Of a DNA stretch of 64,000 bases, positions 1,074-38,688 are shown piece after piece (position 1 is the stretch's first letter; each line of letters begins with the position of its first letter). Position numbers and translations under genes: made by a program. Under the pieces are notes generated by a model that worked only from the letters and a program-made list of their open reading frames with translations, was not told where the DNA came from and did not search any database. Source of the DNA: Streptococcus suis (GTDB lineage: Bacteria; Bacillota; Bacilli; Lactobacillales; Streptococcaceae); assembly GCF_019856455.1 (NCBI RefSeq), contig NZ_CP082205.1, forward strand, positions 868,001-932,000, written 5' to 3'.

Positions 1074-4000
1074 ATGTATCTAAAATCAATTGAAATGCAG
1101 GGCTTTAAGTCCTTTGCGGATAAGACTAAGGTAGTCTTTGATCGTGGAGTGACTGCTGTTGTAGGGCCGAATGGTTCTGGTAAGTCCAATATTACAGAAA
1201 GTCTACGTTGGGCCTTGGGAGAGTCGTCTGCTAAAAGTCTACGTGGAGGCAAGATGCCAGACGTCATCTTTTCGGGAACTGAAAGCCGTAAGCCTCTTAA
1301 TTATGCTTCCGTTGTCGTAACCTTGGATAATAGCACAGGTTTTATTGCTAATAAGAATAAAGAAATCAAGGTAGAACGCCATATTTATCGATCTGGAGAT
1401 AGCGAGTATTTGATAGATGGTCAGAAGGTTCGATTGCGGGATATCCATGATCTTTTCATGGATACAGGCTTGGGACGTGATTCTTTCTCTATCATTTCAC
1501 AAGGGCGGGTTGAAGCAATTTTCAATTCCAAGCCTGAGGAACGCCGTGCTATTTTTGAAGAGGCGGCAGGAGTTTTAAAATACAAGACGCGTAAAAAAGA
1601 AACAGAAAGTAAGTTGGCACAGGCCCAGGGCAACTTGGACCGCTTGGATGATATTATCTATGAATTGGATAATCAGGTCAAACCATTGGAGAAACAGGCA
1701 CAAACTGCTAAGAAATTTCTAGAATTGGATGGTCAACGTAAGGAATTATACTTAGATGTTTTGGTGGCTCAGTTGTCGCTTGGTAAGGAAAAGTTATCGG
1801 AAAAAGAAGCCGAACTAGAGTCTGTCAAAACGGAATTGACTAGCTACTACAAACAGCGTTCTGAGCTGGAGCAAGAAAATCAGAACTTGAAAGAGAAGCG
1901 CCACCGCCTTTCAGAACAATTGGAGCGTGAACAGGCAGTTCTGTTGGATTTGACCAAGTTAATCAGTGATTTGGAGCGAAAAATTGAGGTCCATAAACTG
2001 GAATCTAGTCAAAACGAATCAAGTCGTCAAGAAGCGCAGGCGCGTTTGGAAAACTTGTTGACTAGACGAGAGCAGTTGGCAGAACAGATTGAGCAAAAGA
2101 AAGAAACGCTTGCGCAATTAGATAGTTCCTTGTCTAGCTTGAAAGACGATATTGCTGAGGTAGACAAAGAAATTTCCTACTTTTCAGAAGATCCTGATCA
2201 GGTTTTAGATCATCTGCGTGAACAGTATGTTGCTCTGATGCAGGAAGAGGCAGAAGCTTCAAACAGTCTGACCAAGATTCAGCAGGATATTGCCAATCAA
2301 ATCAGTCTTTCTGAGAGTAAATCTGAAGACTTGGCACGCTTGCAGACGGAAAAACAAACAGCTCAAGAAGTACTTGATAAGAGTCGGAAAAGTTTAGAAG
2401 AAGCTGATCACGTTTTACGCCAGTTGCTTGAGAGCTATCAGACCAAAAAAACAGAATTGGATCAAGTCCAGACTGCTTATCAGGCTGAGCAAGGTCGCTT
2501 GTTTGATTTGCTGGATCAGTTGAAAGGCAAGCAGGCTCGCCAGTCTAGTTTAGAAGCTATTTTAAAAAATCATTCCAATTTCTACGCGGGGGTTAAGGCT
2601 GTCTTACAGGCGGCACCAAGCTTAGGAGGAATTATTGGAGCAGTCAGTGAACAATTGACCTTTGATACTCGTTACCAAACGGCTTTGGAAATTGCTCTTG
2701 GAGGTGCTAGTCAAAACGTCATCGTTGAAGACGAAGCGACTGCTAAACGAGCTATCGCGTTTTTGAAAGAAAAACGGCAAGGACGGGCAACCTTCTTACC
2801 TCTAACAACTATCAAGCCACGTCAGCTTTCTGGACAGCAAGTCTCTTTACTAGAATCTTCAGAAGGATTCTTGGGGCTTGCAAGTGATTTGGTGACTTAT
2901 CAGCCAAATTTAGATGCGATTTTCCAAAATTTGCTAGGTACTATCGCGATTTTTGATACCATTGACCATGCCAATCAGGCAGCGCGGGCAACCAAGTTTC
3001 AAGTGCGTATGGTGACCATGGATGGAGCGGAAATCCGTCCTGGTGGAGCCTTTGCTGGTGGTAGCAATCGAAATAACAGCACGACCTTTATCAAACCAGA
3101 ACTGGATGCTCTTTTAGGAGAAATAGCAGAGCTGTCCAGCCAGTTACAGGAGCAAGAAAGCTTGGTTGCGGCTAAGAAAACTAGCTTAGACCAGACCAGA
3201 GAAGCCTTGGAAACGATTAAGGCGGAGGGGGGAGAAGCTAGATTGAACCAGCAGAGCGCAAGGATTCATCAGGAACAGGCAGAAAATAGACTGGCTCAGC
3301 TATCAGCCCAGTATGACCTGCAAATGAGTCAGGTTAGTCCGACCATTTTGACTGAGCTAGAAGAGGCTGCTGCTAAGGAAGAAGTAAATGTCCAAGCCTT
3401 GAATGAGAAAAAACTAGCCTTGGATCAACAAATCAATCAAGTTCGTGATAATCGCGACAGTATTCAAGAAAGCTTGCAGAAACTACAGACTCAGAAGGGT
3501 CAACTAACTTTGGAACAGGCTGAACTGACTAGCCAACTTCGTTTTGAACAGACAGATTTGAGACGTTTGCAAGAAGAAAAAGTGGTTGCAGATAAGGAAA
3601 TTTCTCTTTTAGAGGATATGATTGACCAGAAGCTTGAAGCTCTTGAAGATACTAGTATTGAGATTCTTGAAGAACAATTGCAGGCCGCATCTGATAAGCA
3701 AAACCAGACAAATCAGATTCTAATTCGCTTAAAGTTTGAATTGGAAGATATTGATGGGCAGTTTGAAGACTTGGAAGAAAGATTGCAACAAGCTCGGACT
3801 AAGAATGATGATTTGATTCGTAAGCAGGCTAAGCTAGAGGCGGATTGTGAGCAAGCGGGCGATAAATTACGGGCTCTACTTGGTAATTTGACAGAGCATT
3901 TTAAATTGAGTTTTGAAGCTGCCCAGTCTCAGGCCAAGGAAGTTGAGTATCTTGCAGTTGCTGAACAAAACCTCAAAGACCTAGAAAGAGCTATTCGTGC

Positions 4001-4607
4001 TTTGGGGCCAGTCAATTTGGATGCTATTGAGCAGTATGACGAGGTTAATAATCGCCTTACCTTCCTCAATGAGCAACGGACAGATATTTTGTCGGCGCGT
4101 GATTTACTACTAGATACTATCCACGAGATGGATGATGAGGTCAAAGAGCGCTTCAAGGTTACTTTTGAAGCTATTCGTGAAAGCTTTAAGCAGACATTCA
4201 AACAAATGTTTGGCGGTGGTTCAGCGGATTTGATTTTGACAGAAGGTGACCTGTTGACTGCGGGTGTGGAGATTTCAGTTCAACCTCCGGGTAAGAAAAT
4301 TCAATCTCTCAATCTTATGTCAGGTGGCGAAAAAGCCCTTTCGGCCCTCGCTCTGCTATTTTCCATTATCCGTGTTAAGACCATTCCTTTTGTTATTCTC
4401 GATGAGGTGGAGGCAGCCTTGGATGAGGCCAATGTCAAACGTTTTGGCGACTACCTCAACCGTTTTGATAAGGAGAGTCAGTTTATCGTCGTGACCCACC
4501 GTAAAGGGACCATGGCGGCAGCGGATGCCATGTATGGGGTGACCATGCAGGAATCTGGCGTGTCCAAGATTGTTTCCGTTAAGCTGAAAGATGTGGAGAA
4601 ATTATGA
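1074..4607 (+). CDS. smc: Chromosome segregation ATPase SMC
   Basis: Core of the SMC-ScpA-ScpB condensin, which compacts and separates sister chromosomes. The 1177-aa length is standard. Walker A (GPNGSGKSN) is at residues 31-39. Long heptad coiled-coil arms flank a hinge at roughly residues 500-680, which contains the glycine-rich GGAFAGGS patch. The C-terminal head carries the ABC signature LMSGGEKALSALALL and Walker B followed by the D-loop (VILDEVEAALDEANV). The gene overlaps the following HAD gene by 4 bases, and rnc ends 2 bases before it, so rnc-smc-HAD-HAD-ftsY looks like one transcription unit. Confidence 0.98.
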   Translation: MYLKSIEMQGFKSFADKTKVVFDRGVTAVVGPNGSGKSNITESLRWALGESSAKSLRGGKMPDVIFSGTESRKPLNYASVVVTLDNSTGFIANKNKEIKVERHIYRSGDSEYLIDGQKVRLRDIHDLFMDTGLGRDSFSIISQGRVEAIFNSKPEERRAIFEEAAGVLKYKTRKKETESKLAQAQGNLDRLDDIIYELDNQVKPLEKQAQTAKKFLELDGQRKELYLDVLVAQLSLGKEKLSEKEAELESVKTELTSYYKQRSELEQENQNLKEKRHRLSEQLEREQAVLLDLTKLISDLERKIEVHKLESSQNESSRQEAQARLENLLTRREQLAEQIEQKKETLAQLDSSLSSLKDDIAEVDKEISYFSEDPDQVLDHLREQYVALMQEEAEASNSLTKIQQDIANQISLSESKSEDLARLQTEKQTAQEVLDKSRKSLEEADHVLRQLLESYQTKKTELDQVQTAYQAEQGRLFDLLDQLKGKQARQSSLEAILKNHSNFYAGVKAVLQAAPSLGGIIGAVSEQLTFDTRYQTALEIALGGASQNVIVEDEATAKRAIAFLKEKRQGRATFLPLTTIKPRQLSGQQVSLLESSEGFLGLASDLVTYQPNLDAIFQNLLGTIAIFDTIDHANQAARATKFQVRMVTMDGAEIRPGGAFAGGSNRNNSTTFIKPELDALLGEIAELSSQLQEQESLVAAKKTSLDQTREALETIKAEGGEARLNQQSARIHQEQAENRLAQLSAQYDLQMSQVSPTILTELEEAAAKEEVNVQALNEKKLALDQQINQVRDNRDSIQESLQKLQTQKGQLTLEQAELTSQLRFEQTDLRRLQEEKVVADKEISLLEDMIDQKLEALEDTSIEILEEQLQAASDKQNQTNQILIRLKFELEDIDGQFEDLEERLQQARTKNDDLIRKQAKLEADCEQAGDKLRALLGNLTEHFKLSFEAAQSQAKEVEYLAVAEQNLKDLERAIRALGPVNLDAIEQYDEVNNRLTFLNEQRTDILSARDLLLDTIHEMDDEVKERFKVTFEAIRESFKQTFKQMFGGGSADLILTEGDLLTAGVEISVQPPGKKIQSLNLMSGGEKALSALALLFSIIRVKTIPFVILDEVEAALDEANVKRFGDYLNRFDKESQFIVVTHRKGTMAAADAMYGVTMQESGVSKIVSVKLKDVEKL

Positions 4608-24678: not shown

Positions 24679-24707
24679 TTGCCAAACATTCTTATTTTTG
24701 ATAGAAT
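24679..24707 (+). promoter_or_regulatory. pheS promoter
   Basis: TTGCCA at 24679-24684, 17 bases, TAGAAT at 24702-24707 with an extended TGA just before it. It lies upstream of the T-box leader. Confidence 0.65.
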
Positions 24708-24719
24708 ATTCTTAATTGA

Positions 24720-24912
24720 ATAGAAGTCTGTGAGACTAGTACACCTATGGAAACTGCTCAGGGAGTTGAGCCGTGACTGCAAGCTCAATCAGTGAAAGTT
24801 GGTCGAATTCACTCACACAAGGACTTAGAAACAAGGTCTGCCTTGCAGATGAAAACGGATGGTACCGCGTGACAACGCTCCGATACGAGTGGTGTCATGC
24901 GTTTTTTTATTG
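24720..24912 (+). promoter_or_regulatory. T-box leader controlling pheS (phenylalanine-responsive)
   Basis: tRNA-sensing transcription riboswitch. The T-box core AACGGATGGTACCGCG is at 24854-24869, with the UGGN bulge that pairs with uncharged tRNA. An AGTA S-turn-type motif is in GACTAGTACACC near 24735. A Phe codon TTC at 24808-24810, in GTCGAATTCACTC, is the candidate specifier. The terminator stem runs GCGTGACAACGCTC to GAGTGGTGTCATGC (about 24867-24902) followed by a T run. When tRNA-Phe is uncharged the T-box pairs with it and the terminator does not form. Confidence 0.92.
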
Positions 24913-24920
24913 GAGGAATT

Positions 24921-25964
24921 ATGTCAAACATTGAACAACAGTTGGCTGAACTAAGCCAATCCACACTTGAAAAGTTAAAAGAAATCCAGCACCAAGGAGA
25001 AAAAGAACTACAAGACCTGCGTGTTGCGGTTTTGGGTAAAAAAGGGTCCTTGACTGACTTGTTGAAAGGCTTAAAAGACCTATCTAACGAAATGAAACCA
25101 ATCGTTGGTAAACAAGTCAATGAAGTGCGTGATGTCTTGACAGCAGCCTTTGAAGAAACAGCTCAAAAGGTTGCGGCAGCGAAAATTCAACAACAATTAG
25201 CATCCGAAACCATTGATGTGACCCTGCCAGGTCGTCAGGTTAAGGTCGGAAAACGCCATGTCTTGACCCAAACTTCTGAAGAAATTGAAGATATTTTCTT
25301 GGGTATGGGCTTCCAAATCGTCGACGGATTTGAAGTGGAGAAAGACTACTATAACTTTGAGCGCATGAATTTGCCAAAAGACCACCCAGCGCGTGATATG
25401 CAGGACACCTTCTACATCACAGAAGAAATCCTTATGCGGACCCATACGTCGCCTGTTCAGGCGCGTACCATGGACCAACATGATTTCTCAAAAGGTGCCT
25501 TGAAGATGATTTCGCCTGGACGTGTTTTCCGTCGTGATACGGATGATGCGACCCACAGCCACCAGTTCCACCAGATTGAAGGTTTGGTTGTTGGTGAAAA
25601 TGTATCCATGGGCGATCTCAAAGGTACGCTTGAAATGATTATCAAGAAAATGTTTGGTGAAGAGCGTCAGATTCGCCTGCGTCCATCATACTTCCCATTC
25701 ACTGAGCCTTCTGTTGAGGTGGATGTTTCCTGCTTCAAGTGCGGTGGTGACGGCTGTAATGTATGTAAGAAAACAGGCTGGATTGAAATCCTCGGTGCCG
25801 GCATGGTCCACCCGCAAGTATTGGAAATGAGTGGCATTGACTCAACCAAGTACTCTGGCTTTGCCTTCGGTCTTGGTCAGGAACGTATTGCCATGCTCCG
25901 CTACGGTATCAACGATATTCGTGGATTCTATCAAGGCGATGTACGATTCTCGGAGCAGTTTTGA
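24921..25964 (+). CDS. pheS: Phenylalanine-tRNA ligase alpha subunit
   Basis: 347-aa catalytic subunit of the alpha2beta2 synthetase that charges tRNA-Phe. It has an N-terminal coiled coil (about residues 1-85), class II motif 2 ([24 protein letters not shown]) and motif 3 ([17 protein letters not shown]), and the [10 protein letters not shown] segment. Start 24921 follows GGAGGAATT; the ATG at 24897 lies in the T-box terminator and is rejected. The pheT gene is 1.3 kb downstream, separated by a repeat array and a GNAT gene. Confidence 0.97.
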
Positions 25965-25971
25965 TGTGAGA

Positions 25972-26005
25972 CCTGTTTCTGATACTGAAAGTATCTAGAA
26001 ACAGG
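25972..26005 (+). other. Hairpin directly after pheS
   Basis: CCTGTTTCTGATACT, 3-base loop, AGTATCTAGAAACAGG: 15 pairs with one interruption. There is no T tract, so it is more likely an mRNA 3-prime stabiliser or processing site than a terminator. The repeat array starts 2 bases later. Confidence 0.6.
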
Positions 26006-26007
26006 AC

Positions 26008-26698
26008 GGTAGCCGCTCTAGCGGTCTACCTACTCCCCTCACTAGTTCTAAGGTTGAAAAAATGTCGTTTTCAACCTTAGAACGTCGTAATCTCGCACTA
26101 TTTAAGGTGTGGTAATCGCTGCTCTGCGACTTTCCTAGCTACCTTACTAGGATTTCTAGATAAAAATATCGTTTTGCTTGAAATCCGTCGTGATTTAGTA
26201 AGTTTGTCAGGTTGTTTAAGGTGAAAAACGGTAGCTGCTCTAGTGGCCTACCTACTCCCCTCGCTAGGTTCAAGGTTGAAAAAATGTCGTTTTCAACCTT
26301 AGAGCGTCGTAACCACGGACGAGTAAAGTAAGGAGGAAATCGCTATTCTGCGACTTTCCTAGCTACCTTACTAGGCTTTCAAGCAAAAAATATCGTTTCG
26401 CTTGAAATTCGTCGTAATCCTATAAAATTAGTAGATTGTTGATTGAGAGAAAGGATAGCCGCTATGGCGGTCTACCTACTCCCCTCACTAGGTTTAGAGT
26501 TGAAAAAGTATCGTTTTCAACCTTAGAACGTCGTAACTCCGCACGAGTAAGTGAAGGGAAATCGCCATTAAGCGACTTTCCTAGCTACCTTACTAGGATT
26601 TCAAGCGAAAAATATCGTTTTGCTTGAAATCCGTCGTAATTCGATAAAGTTAGTAGATTGTTGATTGAGAGAAGCGGTAGCTGCTCTAGCAGCTTACT
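26008..26698 (+). repeat. 223-bp tandem repeat array of hairpins inside the pheS-pheT unit
   Basis: Copies start at 26008, 26230, 26453 and 26676 (spacings 222, 223, 223); the fourth is cut to its first hairpin. Each copy has two parallel half-units. Each half-unit has a small hairpin, a CTA-rich linker (CTCCCCTCACTAG or CTACCTTACTAGG), a longer hairpin whose loop region reads AAAAATRTCGTTTT, and the trailer CGTCGTAA. The longer hairpin of the first half of copy 1 is a perfect 16-bp stem at 26045-26083. Stem sequences differ between half-units while pairing is kept. No good ORF spans it. It fills the whole gap between pheS and the GNAT gene. Confidence 0.85.
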
Positions 26699-26727
26699 TA
26701 ACCCAGTTAGAAATGAGAGGCAATGAA

Positions 26728-27249
26728 ATGCAGATTGATCCTATACGTTTGGAAGAGGTTTCTGTTTTGCAGGAGCTGGCTAAGCAGACTTTTGCAGAGA
26801 CCTTCGCTCACGATAATGCCCCTAAGGAACTGGAGGCATTCTTTGAGGAGTCTTATTCCTTGGAGGTCTTGACTAGTGAGTTGTCGGACCCCAATTGCCA
26901 GCACTATTTTTTAAGAGTTGATAAACAGATAGCTGGTTACCTCAAACTCAACCAAGGTCCTGCCCAGACAGAACAGGAGTTGGAAAATGCCTTTGAAATC
27001 CAGCGTATCTATCTCTTGCAGGCTTTTCAAGGTCGCGGTCTTGGGAAGGTCTTGTTTGAATTTGCTTTGGAAAAAGCAGAGCAGTCTAGTTGTGACTGGG
27101 TCTGGCTGGGAGTTTGGGAACACAATCTCAAGGCTCAGCAATTCTATGCAAAATATGGATTTGAAAAATTTGGCCAGCATGAATTTGCGGTCGGTGATAA
27201 GATAGATGTGGATTGGCTACTAAAACGGCCTTTGCACCAGAAAGGATAA
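26728..27249 (+). CDS. GNAT family N-acetyltransferase between pheS and pheT
   Basis: 173-aa acetyltransferase. The acetyl-CoA loop is in [23 protein letters not shown] near residue 100 (R/Q-x-x-G-x-G/A), followed by [22 protein letters not shown], typical of spermidine/amino-group acetyltransferases. Start 26728 ([10 protein letters not shown]) has GAGAGG seven bases upstream; the frame extends back into the repeat array but those residues are not family-like. pheT begins one base after its stop, so the two are coupled. The substrate is unknown; in streptococci an acetyltransferase at this place is common. Confidence 0.85.
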
Positions 27250-27250
27250 T

Positions 27251-29650
27251 ATGTTAGTAAGTTACAAATGGTTAAAAGAACTGGTTGACTTTGATGCGAC
27301 AAGCCATGACTTGTCTGAAAAAATGTCAACAACAGGAATTGAAGTAGAAGGGGTTGAGCAAAAGAGTGCTGGCCTTTCTAAGTTGGTTGTCGGTCAGGTT
27401 GTGTCTGCTGAGCCCATTCCAGATACTCACCTCAACATCTGCCAGGTCAATGTGGGTGAGGAAATCACGCAAATCGTTTGCGGTGCACCAAATGTCAAGC
27501 CTGGCATCAAGGTGATCGTTGCTCTGCCAGGAGCTCGTATCGCTGGCAACTACAAAATCAAGAAAGGCAAAATCCGCGGCGTTGAGTCTTTGGGGATGCT
27601 CTGCTCATTGAGTGAAATCGGCGTGTCCGATTCAGTTGTGCCAAAAGTCTATGCGGACGGCATCTACCACCTGCCGGAAGCTGCAGTCGTGGGTGAGCCA
27701 GTCTTTTCATACCTTGACCTCGACGACGAGATTATCGAGCTGTCCATCACACCAAACCGTGCTGACGCCCTTTCCATGCGTGGCGTGGCTCACGAAGTGG
27801 CTGCTATCTATGATAGCAAGGTCAACTTCAAGCCTGTGGCCTTGGAGGAAAGTGACAAGAAGGCCAGCGATGTGATTGAAGTGGCCATTGAGTCGGACAA
27901 GGTGACTGCCTACACGGCCCGTGTCATTGAAAATGTGAGCATCGCACCAAGTCCACAGTGGTTGCAAAACCTGCTCATGAACGCAGGTATTCGACCGCTT
28001 AACAACGTAGTTGACATCACCAACTACATCTTGCTCTACTTCGGTCAACCAATGCACGCCTTTGACTTTGACAAGTTTGACGATAAGAAAATCGTGGCTC
28101 GTCAGGCAAAAGAGGGTGAGAACTTGGTAACCCTTGACGGTGAAGAGCGTGATTTGATTGCCGATGACATCGTCATTTCCGTTGGGGACAAGGCGGTTGC
28201 CCTCGGTGGTGTCATGGGTGGTGCCAATACAGAAATCGACAATAGCTCTAAGACCGTTGTGCTGGAAGCGGCCCTCTTTGACGGCAAGTCAATCCGCAAG
28301 ACCTCAGGTCGCCTCAACCTTCGCTCAGAGTCCTCTTCTCGATTTGAAAAGGGCATCAACGTAGCGACCTTGACGGAGGCTATGGACACAGCGGCTGCTA
28401 TGATTGCAGAGCTGGCTGGCGGTCAGGTCTTGTTTGGTATCGTTTCTGCGGGTAGCGTGGATACTTCGGATGTCCCAGTCACAGCAACCATTGACTACGT
28501 TAACCGCTCGCTCGGGACCAACCTCGACTATGCACAAATCGCAGACATTTTCCGTCGTTTAGGTATGGAAACAACTGGCGATGCAAGTCAGTTCACAGTC
28601 GCAGTACCGCGTCGTCGTTGGGACATTCGCATTCCAGCAGACTTGGTAGAGGAAATCGCTCGTATTTATGGGTACAATAATCTGCCAACCACTCTTCCGA
28701 AAGAGGACGGAACAGCTGGTGAGTTGACCCTGACCCAGAACATCCGTCGCCAAGTACGTAGCCTGGCTGAAGGTGCAGGTCTGACAGAAATCATTTCCTA
28801 TGCCTTGACAACGCCTGACAAGGCTGTGGAGTTTGCGGCTCGTCCAACCACAGTCACCGAACTCATGTGGCCTATGACTGTTGACCGCTCTGCCCTCCGT
28901 CAGAACATGGTGTCTGGTATGTTGGAAACAGTGGCCTACAACGTAGCTCGTAAGAATAAGAATTTGGCTCTTTACGAAATAGGAAAAATCTTTGAACAGT
29001 CTGGCAATCCAAAAGAAGACCTGCCACAAGAAATCAATAAGTTTGCCCTTGTCTTGACTGGTTTGGTAGCTGAGAAAGACTTCCAGACACCAGCTGTGCC
29101 AGTTGATTTCTTCCATGCCAAAGGGATTTTGGAAGCAATCTTTGATCATTACAAGTTGGCAGTTGACTTTGTAGCCACAAGTGAGATTGCTGCTCTGCAC
29201 CCAGGTCGTACAGCTGAAATCCATTTGAATGGGGCGGTTATCGGCTTTGTCGGTCAGGTACATCCTCAAACGGCTAAGGACTACGGTATTCCTGAAACCT
29301 ATGTGGCTGAAATCAATCTGGATGCGATTGAAGAAGCACTCCAGCCTGCTCAGCCATTTGCCGAAATATCCAAATTCCCAGCGGTTAGCCGTGATATTGC
29401 CCTGCTCTTGAGCAGTGATGTCAAGCATCAGGATGTCCTGGATGCGATTGCTGGTGCTGGCGTGAAACGCTTGACTAAAGTGACACTCTTTGATGTCTAT
29501 GCGGGCAGCAATATTGAGGCTGGTAAGAAGTCTATGGCTTATAACCTGACCTTCCAGAATCCTGCGGATAGCCTGACGGATGAGGAAGTGGCTAAGTATA
29601 TGGAGAAAATTAGTAAAGCTTTGGTTGAGCTTGGAGCTGAAATCCGTTAA
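27251..29650 (+). CDS. pheT: Phenylalanine-tRNA ligase beta subunit
   Basis: 799-aa editing and tRNA-binding subunit. Domains in order: N-terminal and EMAP-type tRNA-binding domain (residues 40-150, with [20 protein letters not shown]), B3/B4 editing domain (about 210-385), B5 DNA-binding-like domain (about 400-475), a catalytic-like core, and the C-terminal anticodon-binding FDX-ACB domain ([12 protein letters not shown] onward, near 705). The gene is full-length and translated from an ATG one base after the GNAT stop. Two terminator halves flank the stop. Confidence 0.97.
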
Positions 29651-29937: not shown

Positions 29938-30123
29938 ATGTCACACCCCATCATTCCATTGACTGTTCCCCAATCTCGCCGCTTTGAGAAGCGAGGCAGA
30001 AACGATATTATGATGAAAATTCGTCTCGGAAAAGTGGAGCTCACAGTCTTTCACACTATCAATCAAGAAACACTAGAAACAATCTTAGATAAGGTACTGT
30101 TCTATGACCATCCAACTCAGTGA
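29938..30123 (+). CDS. IS66 small accessory ORF (TnpA-like)
   Basis: 61-aa basic protein starting MSHPIIPLTVPQSRRFEKRG, in the first-gene position of the element, with a TGGAGGATTT site. It overlaps tnpB by 20 bases. IS66 TnpA proteins are usually longer and carry a helix-turn-helix; this one is a short relative or remnant of the accessory protein, and its role is inferred from position. Confidence 0.65.
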   Translation: MSHPIIPLTVPQSRRFEKRGRNDIMMKIRLGKVELTVFHTINQETLETILDKVLFYDHPTQ

Positions 30124-30454
30124 TTTAGGTCAAGTTTACTTGGTCTGTGGAAAAACAGATATGCGTCAGGGAATTGATTCCCTGGCCTATCTTATCAAAA
30201 GTCAGTTCAACCTGGATCCCTTCTCCGGTCAGGTCTATCTCTTCTGCGGAGGTCGAAAAGACCGGTTCAAAGCTCTTTATTGGGATGGACAGGGATTTTG
30301 GTTATTGTATAAACGTTTTGAAAATGGGAAATTGACCTGGCCAAACAATGAAGAAGAGGTCAAGGCTCTAACTTCCGAGCAAGTCGACTGGCTCATGAAA
30401 GGATTTTCTATCATTCCAAAAATAAATGTTTCAAAAAGTCGTGATTTCTATTGA
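30104..30454 (+). CDS. tnpB: IS66 accessory protein TnpB
   Basis: 116-aa IS66 Orf2-type protein. It shows the family core VYLVCGKTDMRQGIDSLA near residue 10, VYLFCGGRKDRFKALYWDG, and WLLYKRFENGKLTWP. It is required with the other IS66 proteins for transposition, but its biochemical role is unsettled; it is unrelated to the RNA-guided nuclease TnpB of IS200/IS605. A terminator-like hairpin follows its stop. Confidence 0.9.
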   Translation: MTIQLSDLGQVYLVCGKTDMRQGIDSLAYLIKSQFNLDPFSGQVYLFCGGRKDRFKALYWDGQGFWLLYKRFENGKLTWPNNEEEVKALTSEQVDWLMKGFSIIPKINVSKSRDFY

Positions 30455-30470
30455 AATCATGGCTTTTCTT
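30433..30470 (+). terminator. Terminator-like hairpin between tnpB and tnpC
   Basis: AAGTCGTGATTTC, TATT loop, GAAATCATGGCTT, then TTCTTT. A TATAAT at 30475-30480 and an AGGAG site follow, so tnpC may have its own transcription start. Confidence 0.55.
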
Positions 30471-30504
30471 TGTGTATAATGAGATAAAAAGAAGGAGATT
30501 GGTT

Positions 30505-32017
30505 ATGTCATCACTAGAAAAAATTATTGAAACACAGTCAAAAACGATAGAGATGATGGCTAATGAACTCACTCTCCTTCGAGAACAGGTTGACTATCTG
30601 AGACAGAAACTCTACGGAAAATCATCAGAGAAGGTCGTATATCAACCAGGTCAGCTGAGCTTGTTTGGGGAGGAAAGTCTCCCTGAAGAAGAAGCTGACT
30701 TACCCAGTTGAAACGGAGACCATCACCTATAAACGCAAGAAAGCTAAGGGAGTTCGTCAGGCTATTTTCAGCCAGTTCACTCCAGAGATTGTGCATCACG
30801 AATTGCAGGGCGAAGACTGCACTTGTCCAGACTGTCATGGTCAGCTGAAAGAGATTGGCTCAACTGTTCAACGACAAGAGTTGGTCTTCATTCCTGCACA
30901 ATTAAAGCGGATTGACCATGTTCAACACGCATACAAGTGTCAGGCATGTAGTCAGAAGAATCTAAGCGATAAGATTATCAAGGCTCCTGTTCCTAAGGCA
31001 CCTTTGGCACACAGCTTGGGTTCAGCCTCTATCATCGCTCACACCATTCACCAGAAATTCAATCTGAAGGTACCCAATTACCGTCAGGAAGAGGACTGGC
31101 ATAAACTTGGCCTGCCCATCAGTCGGAAGGAAATAGCCAACTGGCACATCAAGTCTAGTCAGTATTATTTCGAGCCGATTTATAACCTGTTGCACGAGAA
31201 ATTGTTGGAGCAGCCTATTCTTCATGCGGATGAGACTTCCTACAAGGTCTTAGAAAATGATAGCCAGTTGACCTACTACTGGACTTTCTTGTCTGGGAAA
31301 CATGAGAAAAATGGAATTACCCTCTATCATCATGACAAACGACGGAGCGGCTTAGTTGTGGAGGAGTTTCTTGGGGACTATGCGGGCTACGTTCATTGTG
31401 ACATGTGGAGTGCTTATCGTCAATTAGACAAGGCTCAGCTCGTTGGCTGTTGGGCTCATGTTAGACGAAAATTTTTTGAGGCGACTCCTAAGAAGACAGA
31501 TAATACTTCTTTAGGAGCCAAGGGATTAGCCTATTGCGACCGCCTGTTTGCCTTGGAGAGTGACTGGGCTGACCTGTCTACTGAGGAACGGCTACATAAA
31601 CGGCAGACAGAGTTAACTCCCTTGATGGACGAGTTCTTTGATTGGTGCCGTGAACAGGCTGTCTTGCCAGCTTCCAAATTGGGTACTGCAATAGAGTATA
31701 GCCTCAAATACGAAACCACCTTCCGAGCCGTTCTCTCGGACGGTGACCTAGTCCTGTCCAACAATATGGCTGAGAGGGCTATGAAGACCTTGGTGATGGG
31801 CAGAAAAAATTGGCTTTTTTCTCAGAGCTTTGAGGGAGCCAAGTCGACAGCTGTCATTTTGAGTCTTTTAGAAACAGCTAAGCGACACGGACTTGATGCA
31901 GAAAAATATATGACCTATCTTCTAGAACACTTACCTAATGAGGAGTCGCTCGCAAAAAAGGAGGTTTTAGAAGCCTATTTGCCATGGGATAAAAATATTA
32001 AGAGAGCTTGTAAATAG
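30505..32017 (+). pseudogene. tnpC: IS66 transposase TnpC, frameshifted
   Basis: The N-terminal piece (30505-30711) encodes a coiled-coil region, LREQVDYLRQKLYGKSSEK, and QLSLFGEESLPEEEADLP, then stops. The catalytic part continues in the next frame up to 32017: the zinc-finger CTCPDC...YKCQAC, the DDE residues in LHADETSY and VHCDMWSAYR with the Glu in NMAERAMK, and a normal C-terminus. One extra C in the run at 30703-30705 explains the shift, since removing it gives DLPVETETITYKR. The element may therefore no longer move by itself, unless ribosomal slippage or a sequencing error is involved. Confidence 0.88.
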
Positions 32018-32533: not shown

Positions 32534-32668
32534 AGTTTTCTCCTTTGTTATCATTATGCTAATTGTAACACAGATTGAAATGTGACAAAAGAATTTCAAC
32601 TTTATTGTAGTTTAAGTTTTGTTTAATTTTATTTTCAGTTTCATTTAAAGCTTGGTCGGTAAACTATA

Positions 32669-37330: not shown

Positions 37331-38641
37331 ATGGAAATTTTAGCAATTTTAGGAGTTTTATTGGCCATTGTAGCCATTATTTATTGGACATCAAAGAATC
37401 TACATGTGATTGTTGCCGCCCCACTGGCTAGCTTGATTATCATCTTGACCAATCAGATGAATGTTTTAGAGGTCATGTTAGGCCAAGAAAAATCCTATAT
37501 GACAGGCCTAGCAGGTTTTTTGATTAATAACTTTGCTATCTTTATGTTAGGATCGATTTTGGCTCGTTATATGGAAGCGAGTGGAGCTACGCAGACGATT
37601 GCCAATAGCATTTTGAAAGTAATGGGAAAAGATAGTCCCTATAAGGGCTTGTTAGCCATCACTTTGATTGCTTCCATTCTGACCTATGGTGGTGTGAGTA
37701 TTTTTGTAGTTATTTTTACCTTGCTTCCCCTTTCACGCCCCCTCTTTAAAGAGTTGAATATCAACTGGGCACTTTTTCCGATTCCTGTCTTTCTGGGAGC
37801 AGGAACCTACACGATGACAACTCTTCCTGGTGCACCTTCTATCCAGAATGTTATTCCGACAAAAGTTTTGGGAACTAGTTTGACTGCAGCACCCGTTATC
37901 AGTTTGGCAGCCAGCTTGACACTATTAGTATTTGGCTTGCTCTACATGGCCTACTGCCTCAAGAAAAGTCTAGCAAATGGAGAGACGTATACGGAAGAAG
38001 AGGATGAAACTGCAGTAGTGGTAGCTGATAAGACACCAAATCTATTTTTATCAGTCCTGCCTCTATTCAGTCTTATTGGGACGATTTTCCTAATGAGTAA
38101 AACTCCGAATGTCCTAGCAATCGGATTATTGGTCTCTATCCTTCTATCAGCCTTGATTTTTTATCCATATCTGCCAAATCAAAAAGAAATTTTGAATGCT
38201 GCGACAACAGCATCTATAGTGCCTGCTTTTGCAACTTCTAGTACAGTAGCATTTGGGACGGTGTTAACCTTGTCAGCAGGTTTTGCAGTCATTCAAGAAT
38301 GGATTCAACAAATTCCAGGATCGCCGCTGATTAGTTTATCTGTTTCGACAGCATTGGTTAGTGGTATTATCGGTTCCTCTTCTGGTGCAGTAGGTATTGC
38401 TTCAAGTAATTTCCTTCCTGCCTATTTAGAAATGGGGATTAATCCAGAGTTGCTGCATCGTGTAGTAGTTGTTGCATCAGCTATCTTGACAGTTGTGCCT
38501 CAGTCTGGCGTGATGATTACCTTCCACAATCTATCGAAATTAAGTATGAAACGTGGACTCAAGTATTCATTTATCCTAGTGACAGTTGGGCATTTGTTAG
38601 CCTTACTTGTGATTTTACTGATGGCGCCTTTGCTATATTAG
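37331..38641 (+). CDS. GntP-family permease
   Basis: 436-aa membrane protein with about 12 hydrophobic segments, resembling GntP/gluconate-proton symporters and related Na+/H+-coupled carriers. Features include the ILTYGGVSIFVVIFTLLPL segment near residue 115, APSIQNVIPTKVLG, and SGIIGSSSGAVGIASSNFLP near residue 347. A charged cytoplasmic loop (EEEDETAVVV) splits the halves. It follows folK by 21 bases with an AAGGAG site, so it may be read from the folate operon. The substrate is uncertain; a hydroxy acid is the family norm. Confidence 0.78.
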   Translation: MEILAILGVLLAIVAIIYWTSKNLHVIVAAPLASLIIILTNQMNVLEVMLGQEKSYMTGLAGFLINNFAIFMLGSILARYMEASGATQTIANSILKVMGKDSPYKGLLAITLIASILTYGGVSIFVVIFTLLPLSRPLFKELNINWALFPIPVFLGAGTYTMTTLPGAPSIQNVIPTKVLGTSLTAAPVISLAASLTLLVFGLLYMAYCLKKSLANGETYTEEEDETAVVVADKTPNLFLSVLPLFSLIGTIFLMSKTPNVLAIGLLVSILLSALIFYPYLPNQKEILNAATTASIVPAFATSSTVAFGTVLTLSAGFAVIQEWIQQIPGSPLISLSVSTALVSGIIGSSSGAVGIASSNFLPAYLEMGINPELLHRVVVVASAILTVVPQSGVMITFHNLSKLSMKRGLKYSFILVTVGHLLALLVILLMAPLLY

Positions 38642-38660
38642 GATTGATTAACAAACAAAT

Positions 38661-38688
38661 AAAAGCCCTGCCGAATGGCGGGGCTTTT
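38661..38688. terminator. Strong terminator between convergent genes
   Basis: AAAAGCCCTGCC, GAAT loop, GGCGGGGCTTTT. It ends the folate/permease run and the convergent MetE-like gene. Confidence 0.9.

Follow-up and report, generated by a model that had tools for sequence, protein, structure and literature searches.

The tandem hairpin array between pheS and pheT in this Streptococcus suis chromosome represents a locally expanded folded DNA repeat that occurs in most of the Streptococcus genomes examined. Its appearance is that of a very old repeat that spreads, not of a switch devoted to pheS and pheT, and it is likely that the repeat has spread through the Streptococcaceae and that its tandem expansion is, for pheS and pheT, a tolerated spacer. 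What had appeared as one odd array is now a family in most streptococcal genomes examined, and R1, the covariance model of its unit, can be used to annotate such units.

In the window, the 64-kb stretch of DNA that was analysed, Tandem Repeats Finder placed the array at 26006-26690, with a period of 222, 3.1 copies, 82% matches and a score of 908. This confirmed the original prediction of a tandem array between pheS and pheT, with a stub near 26677-26700, and the half-units had the features claimed for them: a small and a large hairpin, a CTA-containing linker, the AAAAATRTCGTTTT loop region and CGTCGTAA. Two details were amended. There is a repeat at the predicted start, 26008, but hairpin P1 of the first unit (25972-26005) lies upstream of it; and the array does adjoin one synthetase subunit gene, pheS, but a GNAT ORF intervenes before the other, pheT (27251). 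The array comprises six complete units, alternating between A and B types, plus the stub. The R1 matches in the window were the six half-units, all on the + strand; beyond these, no R1 match was detected in the 64 kb (E up to 0.0001), and blastn found no copy of the array elsewhere in the same genome (E 0.001). The features are as follows:

24897-25964, + strand: pheS, ORF with Pfam PF01409 and PF02912
25962-25964, + strand: TGA stop codon of pheS, at the 5' edge of the first unit
25962-26090, + strand: unit A1, complete (MFE structure, z -10.1; R1 102.5 bits, core 26006-26090)
25966-25970 with 26038-26042, + strand: P0 of unit A1 (MFE structure)
25972-26005, + strand: P1 of unit A1 (MFE structure)
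26008-26030, + strand: P2 of unit A1 (MFE structure)
26045-26083, + strand: P3 of unit A1, with a 7-nt loop (MFE structure)
26084-26090, + strand: tail of unit A1, GTCGTAA (MFE structure)
26109-26193, + strand: unit B1 core (R1 53.2 bits; fold z -2.3)
26228-26312, + strand: unit A2 core (R1 84.2 bits)
26333-26417, + strand: unit B2 core (R1 65.8 bits)
26452-26536, + strand: unit A3 core (R1 88 bits)
26555-26639, + strand: unit B3 core (R1 71.3 bits)
26677-26700, + strand: truncated A unit, P2 only (from the sequence; similar stubs occur in related loci)
26713-27249, + strand: GNAT acetyltransferase gene, the first after the array (Pfam PF00583)
27251-29650, + strand: pheT (Pfam PF03483, PF17759, PF03147 and others)

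The GNAT gene may start at the in-frame ATG at 26713 or at 26728. Judging from the sequence, co-transcription of pheS, the array, GNAT and pheT is plausible, because the two promoter-like sites detected in 24700-27400 both lie on the - strand. No terminator-like site was found within the array, and an array of terminators was rejected. Elsewhere in the window, IS66-type transposase genes lie directly 3' of pheT (30104-32017; PF03050 and PF13005 for 30665-32014), and an AT-rich 22-bp tandem repeat is present in two copies at 32604-32648. A borderline Rfam match to isrJ, a Salmonella sRNA, at 38614-38687 on the + strand (38.1 bits against 37) is probably due to chance. The ORFs at the window start, 385-1071 and 1074-4607, were read by eye as RNase III (rnc) and SMC, and the proximity of rnc to a double-stranded repeat is probably a coincidence.

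Each unit consists of a junction, in which an outer stem (P0) encloses a variable hairpin (P1) and a second hairpin (P2), followed by ACTAG or ACTAA and a long hairpin (P3). P0 closes around P1 and P2 and ends just 5' of the ACTAG/ACTAA. Unit length is roughly 100-130 nt, or about 129 nt with P1, which is absent to view in the B units of the window; in unit B1, TAAGGT just 5' of the core can pair as the 5' arm of P0. The helices were taken from an unfitted MAFFT alignment of 22 of the 28 chosen half-units, from which six B-type or long rows (w1, w3, w5, L010a, L013a and L047a) were left out because MAFFT had set B-type stems one column off. In this alignment, P2 has 9 pairs with one bulge and P3 has 16 pairs with a 7-nt loop. 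The loop reads A[AG]TRTCG in suis-type units, and GTCGTAA usually lies 3' of P3.

When the first unit (25962-26090) was folded without constraints, P0, P1, P2 and P3 all appeared, at -59.1 kcal/mol (z -10.1), and none of 200 shuffled sequences folded as low. The antisense strand folded equally well, at -59.2 kcal/mol. The degenerate second unit (26094-26193) was weaker, with z -2.3 and 3 of 200 shuffles as low. For P0, an arm-swap test on 138 of 237 units gave -6.53 kcal/mol for a unit's own arms against -5.69 for swapped arms, with 0 of 200 swaps as low; an earlier test, which used shuffled flanks, had given a weak signal (13.0 against 11.6, sd 2.8), with 9% of units lying above the 95th percentile. 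The claim that pairing is mostly kept despite changes in the stems held, although pairing is not full in all units: Watson-Crick pairs in P2 and P3 numbered 25/25, 20/25 and 20/25 in the A units (26006, 26228 and 26452) and 20/24, 21/23 and 23/24 in the B units (26109, 26333 and 26555).

An absence of compensatory changes among the copies had been named as a refutation of the original prediction; such changes were present, with 20 of 25 pairs changed on both sides among the 22 unfitted sequences. The covariation score of these sequences was 0.503; shuffles scored 0.194, none of 500 being as high as the real alignment, and slid structures scored 0.085-0.173; on a weaker measure, further pair types, 9 of 500 shuffles reached the observed value. 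In a larger alignment of 146 distinct rows, which was fitted to the structure, 1309 of 3503 cells showed double changes against 213-359 in slid controls, and the covariation score was 0.794 against 0.096-0.168 for slid structures. Here the weaker measure, pairs with a double change, was reached by 32 of 500 shuffles. Among the argS loci L292-L321, we also observed by eye that entire P3 hairpins differ among close strains and recur in other units, as in a cassette-like swap.

Covariation may reflect a structure kept as RNA or as DNA, and mispairs provide a simple way to ask which applies to a covarying bacterial repeat. Selection on the fold of the transcribed strand should favour G-T (G-U) over A-C mispairs. 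We scored 138 non-redundant units, the other 99 of 237 having been dropped as redundant or short in a flank or arm. Their P2 and P3 cells comprised 2904 Watson-Crick pairs, 73 G-T, 86 A-C and 212 other mispairs, giving a G-T/A-C ratio of 0.85 (bootstrap 95% 0.60-1.18). Because these 212 other mispairs occur, 141 of them C-T, some pairs must be misplaced, and the A-C count of some P3 stems may be too high as a result of misplaced columns. Units whose 5' edge coincides with a stop codon (stop-edge units, see below) had 6 G-T against 23 A-C, and the other units 67 against 63. Lineages differed: G-T exceeded A-C in S. suis-like and other early loci (22/9) and in genus g8 (17/5), and fell below it in G035 (12/28), g2 (6/17), mitis-like units (9/16) and the genome of the window (4/8). 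Since G-T mispairs do not exceed A-C overall, the proposed selection at the RNA level appears to lack general support, despite these differences.

The original prediction had suggested searching streptococcal genomes with a covariance model, and this greatly widened the family. By blastn, matches were found in 50 of 197 genomes of the genus, and a pattern scan of named genomes gave 23 stretches: 12 from S. suis contigs, one each from an uncultured Streptococcus, S. cristatus, S. moroccensis and a Streptococcaceae MAG, and 7 from unrelated contigs that are probably chance. R1 matched 176 of the 197 Streptococcus genomes (E 0.01), with between 1 and at least 22 matches each. It also matched 105 of 147 genomes of the family, in 3 of 10 genera, and 43 of 295 order-wide genomes, 42 of which belong to the same genus; the sole exception (G416) is from another family, with E 2.7e-7. 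The per-genome counts are lower bounds, with 22, 30 and 15 candidates scored per genome for genus, family and order, respectively; when 150 candidates were scored in one genome, G035, 94 matched at E 0.001. At E up to 1, R1 matched the genome of the window 19 times: six of these matches belong to the array and 13 lie outside it, some of the latter near genes that by eye appear to be pyrB, carA, ruvA and two U32 peptidase genes.

The number of units behind pheS varies among strains, a comparison that had also been proposed. In 17 genomes that share at least 93% identity at the end of pheS, that of the window included, the R1 matches between pheS and GNAT numbered 6, 2, 1, 4, 2, 1, 4, 5, 5, 4, 5, 0, 5, 2, 5, 3 and 2 (loci L239-L255, in order), some of those counted being weak or partial (L243, L248). 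As a result, close genomes differ by over 600 bp in the spacing between pheS and the rest of the operon. The locus with no match (L250) retains a P1-P2 remnant, and in a species with 85% identity (L259) R1 gave one match, a weak one (37.8 bits), in the same place. In four outgroup loci (L263, L265, L267 and L268), pheS and GNAT overlap as TAATG and there is no unit. The remnant, the weak match, the outgroup overlaps and the counts of 0-6 together show that the insertion at pheS is old in the suis branch and that the number of units is labile. One option of the original prediction, a mobile RNA-like repeat, was supported, as were a conserved, covarying structure and a strain-variable copy number.

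To describe where units lie, 100 stretches fetched from 12 genomes, plus 37 other sources, were scanned, giving 173 and 90 matches, of which 240 were aligned and 237 are unique; the alignment of the 173-match set holds 150. Rather than being drawn at random, the places are the top-scoring matches of the 12 genomes together with those of S. suis-like loci and the genome of the window. Length was the sole criterion for calling ORFs, shared k-mers or C-termini served to merge places, and gene names beyond pheS, GNAT, pheT and IS66 were assigned by eye. Among 88 of 137 clusters, a co-oriented upstream ORF of at least 100 codons ends within -250 to +90 of the core, and in 49 of these 88 its stop codon (38 TAA, 8 TGA, 3 TAG) lies at -35 to -45, the 5' edge of the unit. 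After orthologous places were merged, 18 of 69 distinct places had the upstream stop at this edge (p 1.4e-8), and 16 of 69 had a member with TAA (p 5e-7). The expected share, 5.3%, is that of TAA stops among TAA/TTA sites outside genes in the fetched loci; this null gives every intergenic TAA site the same weight, and a stop anywhere in a 21-nt window counts towards the observed class. This frequent start at a stop codon is a concrete lead on site choice, a question that also concerns BOX- and REP-like repeats.

Orientation was scored at 111 places with both flanking ORFs: 62 units were co-oriented with both, 23 opposed to both, and 13 + 13 mixed. The 33 stop-edge places account for 29 of the co-oriented cases; among the other 78 (33 co-oriented, 23 opposed, 22 mixed) the bias is not significant (p 0.23).

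The genes upstream of stop-edge units include pheS, ssb, groEL, prfC, argS and nrdE and, by eye, apparent obgE, grpE, glmS, infB, sufB and ruvA. Their proteins mostly end in what we take to be the expected residues (ssb DDDLPF, groEL GGMM, nrdE CESCVI, argS EKM). Stop-edge units lie behind prfC, grpE and groEL in distant lineages, and R1 matched each of the 30 argS loci retrieved, which were the best 30 among 196 genomes. At the ssb-rpsR junction of genus g8, R1 matched 6 of 18 loci (L322, L323, L327 and L336; more weakly L333 and L332); by eye, L337 has a unit-like fold, and L324, L331, L335, L338 and L339 have only a short spacer. The rpsR leader is conserved 3' of the unit at these ssb loci, and some other loci are empty or decayed. 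In the genome of the window, a unit or weak match lies 191 nt behind an apparent nrdE stop (L060) and another 3' of an apparent obgE (L076); nrdE and obgE bear stop-edge units in other genera or species (L176, L231, L212).

We considered whether the stop codon is itself paired in the fold, since TGA stops occur with TCAC in 9 of 9 cases and TAA with TTAC in 17 and with TCAC in 7 (Fisher 3e-4). The association is not good evidence for such pairing: orthologous copies of pheS make up six of the nine TGA rows, the pheS copy in the window leaves its stop unpaired, and argS combines TAA with TCAC. The best fits are prfC (TAA/TTAC and TGA/TCAC) and sufB. In several streptococci, units were also seen in the leader of an apparent metK (L021, L023, L024, L028, L035 and L053), within or behind a sequence resembling the SMK (SAM-III) box; no Rfam match of this kind was found at E up to 5 in L021, L023 and L024. 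In L021 and L023, TATCAGTACTTTGTAA occurs on both sides of the metK-leader units.

Most likely, the unit is a folded DNA module, mobile now or in the past, that settles at the ends of genes and is multiplied locally through recombination. Units would settle at or just 3' of a stop codon, usually TAA, leaving the host protein unchanged. The unit itself ends in TAA, so a further unit could be placed behind it, and similar units would then expand and contract through recombination. The structure would probably be kept because folded, possibly single-stranded, DNA is the substrate of a putative mobilising enzyme, as has been proposed for REP- and BOX-type repeats. We infer from sequence that the unit is mobile, that TAA is its target and that DNA is the folded substrate. 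For pheS and pheT, the array would mainly be a tolerated spacer, any effect on the mRNA being secondary.

Several observations weigh against parts of this model. No transposase could be linked to the unit, R1 finding nothing at 23 Y1-transposase loci, and no insertion event was caught between near-identical strains. The units behind prfC, grpE and groEL in distant lineages could mark positions that are old, conserved and functional, or hot spots, instead of reflecting free mobility, the preference for stop codons is stronger than a simple TAA target predicts, and the excess of G-T over A-C in two lineages (22/9 and 17/5) argues against the DNA view. More tentatively, the units may be junction elements anchored at stop codons throughout the Streptococcaceae, recognising or inserting at native stops and keeping their fold while the letters of the stems turn over almost completely: non-coding mobile DNA with a putative enzyme, perhaps predating the split of the genera.

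Quite possibly, the unit corresponds to an S. suis BOX module, boxE or boxF, in which case only its wide distribution and fold would be new; this is compatible with the DNA-repeat reading. In the passages covered, Croucher 2011 (PMC3049150) describes BOX-type modules A-F in S. suis, the large boxE and boxF averaging 115 and 133 nt, a size similar to that of the unit, and reports that in 36 of 58 overlapping CDSs the stop codon likewise comes from pneumococcal BOX. In G035, some units also lie within BOX-like and TIR-bounded composites. Against the identity, the same passages of PMC3049150 state that the authors' repeats hardly occur in other streptococci, whereas R1 found the unit in 176 of 197 genomes, a contrast in which the modules were compared by description only; BOXA1R had 0 matches in the genome of the window and in G035, and R1 had none at the BOX places of 10 loci.

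A cis-acting RNA element in the 3' UTR, whose fold in the mRNA behind the stop would affect termination, decay (for example, by RNase III) or translation of the next gene, is unlikely. It would account for the starts at stop codons of apparently well-conserved genes, the recurrence behind prfC, grpE and groEL in distant lineages and at argS (30/30, the best 30 of 196), the strong sense-strand fold (z -10.1), the covarying pairs and the G-T excess in two lineages (22/9 and 17/5). However, G-T does not exceed A-C overall (73/86; stop-edge 6/23), the complementary strand has just as strong a fold (-59.2 kcal/mol), units run antisense to both flanking genes at 23 of 111 places and have a mixed orientation at another 26, and close relatives carry 0 to 6 units behind one gene.

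A device setting the ratio of pheS to pheT, as an attenuator or processing site, is very improbable: the array does sit inside the operon and separates what in four outgroup loci is a TAATG overlap of pheS and GNAT, but it has no terminator-like site and close relatives carry 0-6 units, and the proposed tuning is unsupported because the unit lies behind many unrelated genes and is absent from the TAATG outgroups. A regulator unique to pheS-pheT is ruled out, the family being found elsewhere.

The statement that the array fits no repeat family was borne out for Rfam, pneumococcal BOX and REP; it was too broad in that the unit resembles BOX-type modular repeats and may, as far as descriptions allow comparison, overlap the S. 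suis modules. None of 4227 Rfam families reached its gathering score at the array, the best sub-threshold E being 0.8, so that an Rfam family was rejected there, as it was for six related loci. For BOX, we used what we take to be the BOXA1R primer letters as the boxA pattern. With up to 2 mismatches, it had no match in the genome of the window or in G035, and it occurred in 88 of 197 genomes of the genus. On 10 BOX-bearing loci (E up to 10), R1 gave one match (L131, E 0.023), which lies on the opposite strand some 90 nt past the BOXA1R site, and none at the BOX places themselves. Pneumococcal BOX was therefore rejected.

Repeats of integrons and transposons share some traits with the unit. The attC sites of integrons form head-to-tail arrays of hairpins in which structure rather than sequence is kept; the units are likewise head to tail, without cassette genes between them in the arrays read. 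A type III toxin-antitoxin or CRISPR-like array was set aside on general knowledge. Like GTAG REPs/RAYT and IS200/IS605-derived repeats, the unit is folded, with small conserved unpaired motifs beside hairpins; a GTAG REP/RAYT was rejected since R1 (E up to 1) matched none of the 23 Y1-transposase loci, which came from 6 of 7 genomes. The CGTC-tagged REPs, as described in the passages covered of Di Nocera 2013 (PMC3733652), are also palindromic, with an unpaired CGTC on one side, lie mostly behind genes and have no known transposase. Their stems are 8-9 bp, their loops 4-5 nt and their tail CCA, whereas P3 has about 16 bp and a 7-nt loop, with CGTC 3' of the stem and then TAA, so stem, loop and tail do not fit. 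In the passages of the open-access literature covered, which include PMC2828477, PMC11109978, PMC4448216 and PMC2267715, the unit is not described beyond the possible S. suis modules.

The closest resemblance is to BOX. By eye, six G035 loci (L139, L140, L144, L146, L147 and L154) hold composite repeats with ends GATACTTTC/GAAAGTATC in which the unit is the 5' module, and this composite occurs in several similar copies in G035; BOX-like ends surround units in L152 and L157, and the ATACTC...GAGTAT composite ends of pneumococcal BOX were not seen at the pheS array. Together with the S. suis modules and BOX-supplied stops described in the passages covered of Croucher 2011, the composites point to a shared pool of modular folded repeats. 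Like BOX and the S. suis modules, the unit is short, interspersed, folded and modular, often intergenic, with inner modules repeated and low mobility; it differs from BOX in its wider distribution and its junction-plus-P3 anatomy. The best reading is an old modular interspersed DNA repeat, BOX-like in behaviour.
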